Shown: positions 31,747 to 33,763 of the stretch, one piece after another
Layout of the letters: each line of letters opens with the position of its first letter
Numbering within the stretch: position 1 is the stretch's first letter
Source of the DNA: Flavobacteriales bacterium
GTDB lineage: Bacteria > Bacteroidota > Bacteroidia > JANQJC01
Direction of reading: 5' to 3'
Length of the DNA: 36,231 nt
Assembly (NCBI GenBank): GCA_028281825.1
Contig: JANQJC010000024.1
Location: 1 to 36,231 of the forward strand
Position numbers and translations under genes: made by a program
The notes under the pieces: generated by a model
What the model saw: the letters and a program-made list of their open reading frames with translations, nothing else
Databases searched by the model: none
What the model was told of the DNA's origin: nothing

Positions 31747-33189
31747 ATGCAAAAAATACAGAACTATATAAATGGGGAGTTGGTAACTCCTAGAAGTGGT
31801 GATTATATTGATAATCATAATCCTGCAACGGGTAGTGTTTATTCATTGATACCAGATAGCGATGAACGGGATGTCGAGATAGCTGTGCAAGCAGCTAAAA
31901 AAGCTTTCCCTGCCTGGGCTGCTAAAAGCAATGAGGAACGAAGTAATATTCTGCTAAAAATTGCCGATTTAATCACCGATAATCTTGATCAATTGGCAGC
32001 AGCCGAATCGATGGATAATGGTAAACCCGTTTGGCTTGCCAAAAAAGTTGATATACCAAGGGCGGCTTCCAATTTTCACTTCTTTGCCACTGGCATAATT
32101 CACTATGCATCAGAAAGCCACAACATGGGTAGTGAGTATATCAATTACACACTTAGGCAGCCGATTGGAGTGGCAGGATGTATTAGCCCCTGGAATTTGC
32201 CTTTATATCTCTTCACTTGGAAAATAGCGCCGGCATTGGCATCGGGTAATTGTGTGGTAGCCAAGCCAAGTGAGGTAACTCCAATGACTGCCTACTTGTT
32301 GTCAGAACTGTGCATTAAGGCTGGGTTGCCCAAAGGGGTTTTGAATATAGTTCACGGTTATGGGTATAAAGTAGGAGCAGCCATTACCAGTCATAAAGAT
32401 GTGCCTTTGGTGTCATTTACTGGGGGAACTAAAACAGGTGCTGAAATAGCAAGGGTTGCAGCGCCAATGTTTAAAAAACTATCATTGGAATTGGGTGGGA
32501 AAAACCCAAACATAATCTTTGAAGACTGTAACTTTGACGATGCTTTGAAAACAACTGTTAACTCCTCATTTAGTAACCAAGGGCAAATATGCCTTTGTGG
32601 TTCAAGGATATATATACAGAGGCCAATTTATGATAAGTTTAAGGAAGCCTTGGTTGAAAGGGTGAAGAAACTGAAAGTGGCTGCACCTAAAGACCCAGAG
32701 GTGAAAATAGGCGCAGTGGTTTCTGAAGACCATATGAATAAGGTGCTTAGCTACATAAATCTGGCTCAAGAGGAGGGTGGTAAAGTGTTATGTGGTGGTG
32801 AAAGGGTGGTGCTTGATGGTGAGTATAAAAGTGGCTGGTATATTGCCCCTACTGTGATTGAAGGGCTTGACCATACCTGCCGCACTAATCAGGAAGAGAT
32901 ATTTGGCCCGGTAGTCACTCTACAGCCATTTGATGCAGAGGAAGAAGTGCTGGAATATGCCAATAGCACCGCTTATGGCTTGTCAGCTACTATCTGGACA
33001 CAGGATTTAAGTAAGGCCCATCGTGTAGCTGCAAAAGTTAAATCAGGGATTATATGGATTAATTGCTGGTTGGTTCGTGACTTACGAACGCCTTTTGGAG
33101 GGATGAAACAATCTGGTGTAGGCAGAGAAGGTGGTTGGGAAGCCTTACGCTTTTTTACAGAACCGAAAAATGTGTGTGTGAAAGTATAA
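31747..33189 (+). CDS. Aldehyde dehydrogenase, ALDH8/2-hydroxymuconic semialdehyde dehydrogenase-like
   Basis: From ATG 31747 the protein has 480 residues, typical for NAD(P)-dependent aldehyde dehydrogenases. Catalytic residues are Cys282 (NQGQICLCGS), Glu248 (LELGGKNP) and Asn150 (SPWNLPL); Lys173 (AKPSE) contacts the cofactor. The C-terminal block NCWLVRDLRTPFGG and SGVGREGGWEALRFF is characteristic of the aminomuconate/2-hydroxymuconic semialdehyde dehydrogenase subgroup (ALDH8A1-like), used in tryptophan or aromatic catabolism. No other genes of such a pathway are nearby, so the exact aldehyde is uncertain. An upstream TTG at 31726 adds seven unlikely residues. The last bases lie 4 bases from the end of the convergent MurD-like gene. 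A one-mismatch -7 box (GATATTTG, 31721-31728) may give it its own promoter. Confidence 0.92.
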   Translation: MQKIQNYINGELVTPRSGDYIDNHNPATGSVYSLIPDSDERDVEIAVQAAKKAFPAWAAKSNEERSNILLKIADLITDNLDQLAAAESMDNGKPVWLAKKVDIPRAASNFHFFATGIIHYASESHNMGSEYINYTLRQPIGVAGCISPWNLPLYLFTWKIAPALASGNCVVAKPSEVTPMTAYLLSELCIKAGLPKGVLNIVHGYGYKVGAAITSHKDVPLVSFTGGTKTGAEIARVAAPMFKKLSLELGGKNPNIIFEDCNFDDALKTTVNSSFSNQGQICLCGSRIYIQRPIYDKFKEALVERVKKLKVAAPKDPEVKIGAVVSEDHMNKVLSYINLAQEEGGKVLCGGERVVLDGEYKSGWYIAPTVIEGLDHTCRTNQEEIFGPVVTLQPFDAEEEVLEYANSTAYGLSATIWTQDLSKAHRVAAKVKSGIIWINCWLVRDLRTPFGGMKQSGVGREGGWEALRFFTEPKNVCVKV

Positions 33190-33193
33190 TGGC

Positions 33194-33763
33194 TTAGTAG
33201 GCCATTGTTTTCAGCCTTTCAACTACGGCATTATAAATAGCGCTTCTCTCTTGCAGATTGCGGTCTTCTTCAGCTATTTTTGAAGCAGGTGAGTAAAGCA
33301 CAGCATCTCCTTCTTGAGCGATGTAAAAAGCGATTTTTACAGCCTCAGAAATAGAGGCAACATTCACCATTAGTTGTACCTGGTTACCACCAAACTTTTT
33401 AAATAAGTCATTGCTGGCATTGGCTATACAAATAATTGCCTTAACCTTTTTGTTAATAAGTTTTGAAAAAGCAGAATAGTCCTGTGAGTTATCAATTTCA
33501 TTCATAATCCATATAATAGGATTTTCTGTTTCTTCAAGTGATTTAACTGAACTTTCTATATTAGTAGAAGTTGAATCATTGATATAGTCAACTCCATTGT
33601 GTTTAATGATAATATCACAACTTTTGCCTGAAGTTTCGAAAACATCGGAGATACTCTCTCTTATTATGTCTTCACGAATTTCAAGGACATCTATATAGCT
33701 TTGCTCGGATAAGTCGCCCTTAAAAGGGTTTCTTATTGGTATATAAATAGTAGATTTCCTCAT
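33194..33763 (-). CDS. Orphan protein resembling the C-terminal domain of MurD (probably non-catalytic)
   Basis: From ATG 33763 the 189-residue protein resembles only the C-terminal domain of UDP-N-acetylmuramoylalanine-D-glutamate ligase. The pattern INDSTSTNIESSVKSLE (61-77) aligns with MurD NDSKATN...L, IIWIMNEIDNSQDYSAF (83-99) with the GGxxKxxDF segment, VKAIICIANAS with the next strand, and GDAVLYSPA (152-160) with GDVVLLSPA. The ATP-binding GKT loop and central ligase domain are absent. In Escherichia coli MurD the D-Glu contacts are Thr321, Lys348, Ser415 and Phe422, and Lys319 is another active-site residue. By motif alignment Thr321 is kept, but Lys319 becomes Thr, Lys348 Asn, Ser415 Ile and Phe422 Leu. 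The frame is intact, so this looks like a repurposed domain and not a decaying fragment. An upstream ATG at 33832 is less likely. Confidence 0.72.
   Translation of the reverse strand: MRKSTIYIPIRNPFKGDLSEQSYIDVLEIREDIIRESISDVFETSGKSCDIIIKHNGVDYINDSTSTNIESSVKSLEETENPIIWIMNEIDNSQDYSAFSKLINKKVKAIICIANASNDLFKKFGGNQVQLMVNVASISEAVKIAFYIAQEGDAVLYSPASKIAEEDRNLQERSAIYNAVVERLKTMAY

Follow-up and report, generated by a model that had tools for sequence, protein, structure and literature searches.

A non-catalytic MurD lid protein outside the dcw cluster, and a family of stand-alone MurD C-terminal domains in Bacteroidia

MurD is a universal enzyme and a heavily studied drug target. Its C-terminal domain is a lid that swings over to the central domain, already loaded with ATP, and brings D-Glu with it (PMC4816537). 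Among the relatives of the Mur ligases, MurT works with a second protein, GatD, and not as a stand-alone amino-acid ligase. There is also a precedent for the inhibition of MurD by another protein: MigC, a COG0523 zinc-dependent GTPase of Acinetobacter baumannii, binds MurD and lowers its activity with a Ki of about 32 uM, the interaction being mapped to MurD residues 53-103 (PMC12208494). Here we examine a gene in a 36,231-nucleotide stretch of a Flavobacteriales genome (the whole of this stretch is the window; assembly GCA_028281825.1, contig JANQJC010000024.1) whose product corresponds to the MurD lid on its own. We name this gene, which lies outside the dcw cluster, MDC2, and the stand-alone lid genes situated between murD and ftsW MDC1.

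A first-pass annotation of the window had described an intact frame of about 189 residues encoding a stand-alone MurD C-terminal domain, with neither an ATP loop nor a central domain. The frame is indeed undamaged, running for 189 codons from an ATG at 33763 to a stop at 33194-33196. The NCBIfam murD model (TIGR01087) matches it at model positions 301-440 of 441 only (E 9.8e-23), with 80.9 bits, below the curated cut-off of 211.95 that applies to the whole three-domain MurD, and Pfam Mur_ligase_C (PF02875) scores 28.0 bits against a gathering cut-off of 28.4 (E 4.3e-6). The top phmmer matches in the PDB are MurD chains (best E 4.5e-10). An early structural model from 8 sequences was poor (pLDDT 65); the AF2 model used here, from a 26-sequence alignment, has a pLDDT of 78, with values >90 across most of the core. 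Its predicted fold fits the solved Mur ligase C domains, the best Foldseek match in the PDB being MurD (E 3.4e-9, TMq 0.61 over 140 columns, probability 1.00), and plastid RNA polymerase chains appear among the weaker matches. Neither the ATP-binding loop GxxGKT nor a catalytic central domain was found in the 189-aa protein by the Pfam, NCBIfam and PDB searches. The earlier description needs amendment on one point: MDC2 is slightly more than a C domain, since it adds the last helix of the MurD central domain (residues ~24-40, LEIREDIIRESISD) and a variable tail of ~20 residues, so that the central domain is essentially, not wholly, absent. Nine residues of this helix (E28, I29, R30, D32, I33, R35, E36, S37 and D40) are invariant in the alignment of the window protein with its orthologues described below. 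No match to the TAnnTTTG promoter motif occurs within 350 bases upstream of the MDC2 start; downstream, the end of an aldehyde dehydrogenase (ALDH) gene lies 4 bases from the MDC2 stop (Table 1).

The ligand pocket of this lid has been largely dismantled. In an alignment with E. coli MurD (2jff), whose numbering is given first, the four replacements proposed in the first-pass annotation are all borne out (K319 to T65, K348 to N92, S415 to I163 and F422 to L170), as is the retention of Thr321 (T67), and to these must be added H301 to K47, R302 to S48 and the Gly-Gly loop G344-G345 to N88-E89. N316-D317 and S410-P411 are also kept; of the D-Glu set Thr321, Lys348, Ser415 and Phe422, Thr321 alone is retained. 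Lys348 is a D-Glu contact, the roles of substrate residues being general knowledge from MurD structures. In 101 full MurD lids the examined residues are essentially invariant (K348 in 101/101). The 34 MDC1 proteins compared retain His301 (34/34), Asp317 (32/34), Thr321 (30/34) and Lys319 (26/34), and Lys348 in just 7/34, whereas in the eight MDC2 proteins only Asn316, Asp317, Ser410 and Pro411 are generally present: K319, K348, S415, F422, R302 and the Gly-Gly loop are changed in nearly all members, and even Thr321 is peculiar to the window copy, being absent from all seven of its f4 orthologues (f4 is one of the Bacteroidia families compared). Loss of the D-Glu lysine is hence common across the stand-alone lid family, and loss of the hinge and nucleotide contacts is the hallmark of MDC2.

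Table 1. Coordinates of the window features and of the other stand-alone lids considered
Feature	Location	Strand	Neighbours or remarks	Basis
MDC2, stand-alone MurD C-terminal-domain protein, 189 aa	33194..33763	-		ORF; TIGR01087 C-terminal match, E 9.8e-23; PDB MurD matches
MDC2 N-terminal helix, residues 20-43	33635..33706	-	counterpart of last helix of MurD central domain	window/f4 alignment; model
MDC2 Mur ligase C-terminal (lid) domain, residues 46-187	33203..33628	-		TIGR01087; PDB phmmer; AF2; Foldseek
NDSTSTN motif (MurD NDSKATN)	33560..33580	-	Asp317 and Thr321 kept, Lys319 to Thr	alignment
MNEIDN replacing MurD.GGDGK	33488..33505	-	Gly-Gly and Lys348 gone	alignment
SPASKIAEEDRNLQERS replacing SPACASLDQFKNFEQRG	33242..33292	-	Ser415 and Phe422 changed	alignment
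Aldehyde dehydrogenase (ALDH)	31747..33189	+	convergent neighbour, not an operon with MDC2	ORF; comparison with f4 loci
Source genome's MDC1, 182-aa MurD lid	L005 7779-8327		dcw cluster, murD-MDC1-ftsW	
MurD-less clade lids	L058 5959-6510; L069 866-1417; L070 5959-6510; L187 10786-11334; L188 8923-9471		plus matches in G400-402, G404, G406, G408, G410	
Phage lid, IMGVR_UViG_3300002307_000082	L240 3035-3535		O-like replication initiator, NinG, exonucleases	
Phage lid, IMGVR_UViG_3300011443_000030	L244 4920-5432		helicase, YqaJ/RecE-like exonuclease, DnaD-like loader	
Lid on phage-like contig G384:C72	L238 4670-5278		cysteine-rich (zinc-ribbon-like) N-terminal extension	

The first-pass annotation had called for a check that the source genome (~96% complete) also has a full-length murD. 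It does: this murD is a normal gene in a canonical dcw cluster, and its product has its own intact lid. A second stand-alone lid gene, MDC1, begins 28 bases past this murD and lies just ahead of ftsW, a place that MDC2 does not share. This better-preserved copy, which keeps His301, Arg302, Asp317, Lys319, Thr321, the Gly-Gly loop, Ser415 and an aromatic residue at 422 but not Lys348, turns one odd gene into the question of a family. The two proteins of this genome are 39% identical and are alike in length, in domain boundaries including the central-domain helix and in the kind of variable N-terminal tail. MDC1 differs from MDC2 in that it sits in dcw, retains most of the hinge and nucleotide contacts, is under tighter constraint and belongs to a separate clade.

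The source genome is the sole member of its GTDB family and order among the genomes compared, and the wider distribution of MDC1 is seen in the rest of the class. Many of 395 genomes of class Bacteroidia contain additional lid frames, 180-240 aa long and standing alone, and about a dozen families of the class have an MDC1-type gene at the junction of murD and ftsW. Gene context places such genes there in families f1, f4, f5, f9, f10, f12, f28, f32, f38 and f75, the last with two tandem copies (L239 2564-3641, genome G332); in f45 the junction was judged from adjacent match positions, and in f43 MDC1 lies ahead of ftsW with murD on a different contig. MDC1 stands directly before ftsW at locus L050 (G042:C2), where the link to ftsW persists although murD lies on a separate contig. 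A scan of 148 genomes of the phylum gave the source genome's own lids as the only clear stand-alone cases, the other matches listed lying in full-length-sized frames except for one short split match in G430, and in an 80-locus GTDB scan MDC1 was absent from the named isolates with matches (Polaribacter, Tenacibaculum, Lutibacter and Wenyingzhuangia). In a tree whose root is not fixed, the MDC1 copies form clades apart from the MurD lids, which fits an old duplication and not many recent ones.

MDC2 itself is not confined to the window. In seven f4 genomes a lid gene lies outside dcw; five of these genes are convergent with an ALDH gene, like that of the window. The f4 ALDHs for which a full-length comparison with the window's was made are 75-76% identical to it. 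The window protein and the seven f4 copies form one clade (support 98/95); an f43 copy without an adjacent ALDH (L237 4371-4988), tentatively a more distant MDC2 member from a third family, can be added with a clade support of 97/94. The window copy sits on a long branch, at just 34-39% identity to the f4 copies, and because long branches meet in this clade, synteny weighs more than the tree for the orthology of the window and f4 genes. We considered a functional link between MDC2 and the ALDH; the neighbourhood is conserved but convergent, and it serves here solely as evidence of orthology. At four f4 loci (L035, L041, L043 and L048) MDC2 is also near a MerR/B12-type regulator, an ECF-like sigma factor and a photolyase-like protein, which do not stand beside the window gene.

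All MDC2 frames are intact in the eight genomes, which represent two GTDB families, and those f4 genomes with MDC2 that are complete enough also carry MDC1 and MurD. Rough Nei-Gojobori estimates give omega values of 0.09-0.22 for the f4 MDC2 copies at dS 0.2-1.8, compared with 0.03-0.06 for MDC1 and 0.06-0.09 for both MurD and the ALDH. The f4 copies are thus under purifying selection, some two to three times looser than that on MDC1. Since dS is saturated between the window and f4, selection on the window copy is read from these orthologues; the dN/dS comparison advocated in the first-pass annotation is therefore informative within f4 and not across to the window. The loss of the pocket, together with purifying selection on the orthologues, upholds the earlier view of a domain kept without catalysis. 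Neither a fold foreign to Mur ligases nor a gene of one genome under relaxed selection, the two outcomes that would have told against that view, was found.

Lids free of the rest of MurD also occur in other settings. Two IMG/VR phage contigs encode lids on their own, 166 and 170 aa long, amid replication and recombination genes, and another lies on a phage-like contig (Table 1). These phage-region lids retain most ligand residues (that of L244 the full pocket), PHROGs holds no family for them, and in the tree they fall on long branches nearest the full MurD lids and separate from one another, a pattern suggestive of separate captures from Bacteroidota. Of the unannotated INPHARED matches, we checked the best four; all proved to be full-length MurD, encoded on unverified 'Bacteriophage sp.' scaffolds that are probably bacterial. 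In a Flavobacteriaceae-type clade (G395-397, G400-402, G404, G406 and G408-410) we found a MurD lid of ~182 aa with the conserved start MSIS.FALQTNFNVKNAMAS, and full MurD was not detected in these genomes, whose completeness is not reported. In the loci read, this lid occupies murD's place between mraY and ftsW, and wherever the stretch is present murG is followed directly by ftsQ; one of these dcw clusters lies on a contig of 3.53 Mb, and the part of it that was read contains no N. Full MurC was likewise not detected where searched, a MurC-like fragment at G396:C17 being the first part of a further Mpl, truncated where the contig ends. MurE and MurF are present, Mpl in most genomes and MurI in the three tested, which rules out a loss of the D-glutamate supply; L-Ala and D-Glu are possibly attached by an alternative stem-peptide route. 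Two genomes compared gave an omega of 0.04 for this lid, some copies of which retain the full pocket, and the three tested fall among Flavobacteriaceae MurD in the tree, as an independent truncation. The phage and MurD-less cases illustrate that an isolated lid has repeatedly been kept, and do not speak to the role of MDC2.

MDC2 is not a MurD enzyme. Our preferred reading, which we hold tentatively and with somewhat less than even confidence, is that it is a non-catalytic protein derived from the MurD lid that plays a regulatory role in peptidoglycan synthesis through protein-protein contact. It would descend from the MurD C-terminal lid by way of the older stand-alone family MDC1. A free lid that has kept the hinge and nucleotide contacts and lost the D-Glu lysine, as most MDC1 have, could dock as a dead lid on a Mur ligase, either MurD or a relative of it, and tune that enzyme in trans; because the MurD lid is known to move (PMC4816537), we infer that the residues retained by MDC1 may serve docking on the ATP-loaded central domain. 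MDC2 would be a step beyond: with the pocket lost and the fold, the N-terminal helix and selection remaining, it most likely acts through protein-protein contact only, as a partner or antagonist, made from its own locus, of MDC1, MurD or perhaps nearby division machinery. That a lid alone can be useful is supported by the free lids of phage early regions and of the MurD-less clade. Since MDC2 lies away from dcw and its sole conserved neighbour is the convergent ALDH gene, it is only ancestry that ties it to peptidoglycan.

That last point leaves room for a recruitment of the MDC2 fold outside the cell wall, with a new ligand or partner and the MurD ancestry a historical accident. We consider this somewhat unlikely. 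It would agree with the separate locus, the convergent ALDH neighbour and the different context of the f43 copy, and Mur-type folds do serve as structural parts elsewhere, as in the plastid RNA polymerase chains; however, the sufficiently complete f4 genomes with MDC2 also carry MDC1 and MurD, and the helix and core have been retained with no new domain. The first-pass annotation had offered two examples of a regulatory or binding role: an interaction with MurD, which is possible, and the sensing of muropeptide precursors. A sensor that binds the old MurD ligands (D-Glu, UDP-MurNAc-peptides or a nucleotide) and signals has in its favour that the ancestral domain binds D-Glu and contacts ADP, and that MDC1 retains many of the residues involved. 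The residue pattern argues against it and makes it improbable, as the examined D-Glu and nucleotide contacts, N316-D317 excepted, are lost in nearly all MDC2 members and Thr321 persists in the window copy only.

If MDC2 were instead a relic, a duplicated lid decaying without function, one would expect the long branch, the lost ligand residues and a constraint weaker than that on MDC1, all of which are seen; intact frames in eight genomes of two families, conserved synteny and the low omega among the f4 copies, a measure that does not cover the window copy itself, nonetheless render such decay very improbable. Least credible of all is a split-enzyme role, in which a Mur ligase would use MDC2 in trans as the lid for its catalysis. 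Some free lids do have a full pocket (f12 MDC1, that of phage L244 and some of those in the MurD-less clade), but MDC2 is without the D-Glu and nucleotide residues, and the MurD of its own genome has an intact lid already.

A broader proposal, which we regard as unlikely at present, would extend the preferred, regulatory reading to free MurD lids in general, which would form a class of proteins regulating the synthesis of peptidoglycan precursors in trans in Bacteroidota: an old duplication beside murD, loss of the pocket in a second paralogue (MDC2), survival in one Flavobacteriaceae clade as all that is left of MurD, and capture by phages that may use these lids on the host's MurD. The Mur lid fold is known, and its arrangement as a stand-alone lid family that adjoins murD in a dozen or so families seems not to have been described: a full-text literature search, with subscription journals largely outside it, returned no published description of a stand-alone MurD C-terminal domain of either type. 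Were free lids to act on MurD in trans, they would constitute a genetically encoded means of tuning or blocking the synthesis of cell-wall precursors, and inhibitors could be modelled on them. The recurrence of the fragment in so many guises makes the function of an isolated lid directly testable.

Compared with the described systems, MDC2 stands closest to MurD (TIGR01087; PDB 7sy9, 1uag and 2jff), with whose solved lids it shares 22-25% identity, the Rossmann-type lid fold, N316-D317, Thr321 and S410-P411; it departs from MurD in being without the UDP-binding domain, the ATP loop and nearly all of the central domain, and in the changes at Lys319, Lys348, Ser415, Phe422, Arg302 and the Gly-Gly loop. 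MurT, with which it has only a weak similarity of fold, differs in having kept its ATP-binding domain and in being catalytic. MigC, of an unrelated fold, offers the same kind of action on MurD as the one that we propose for MDC2.
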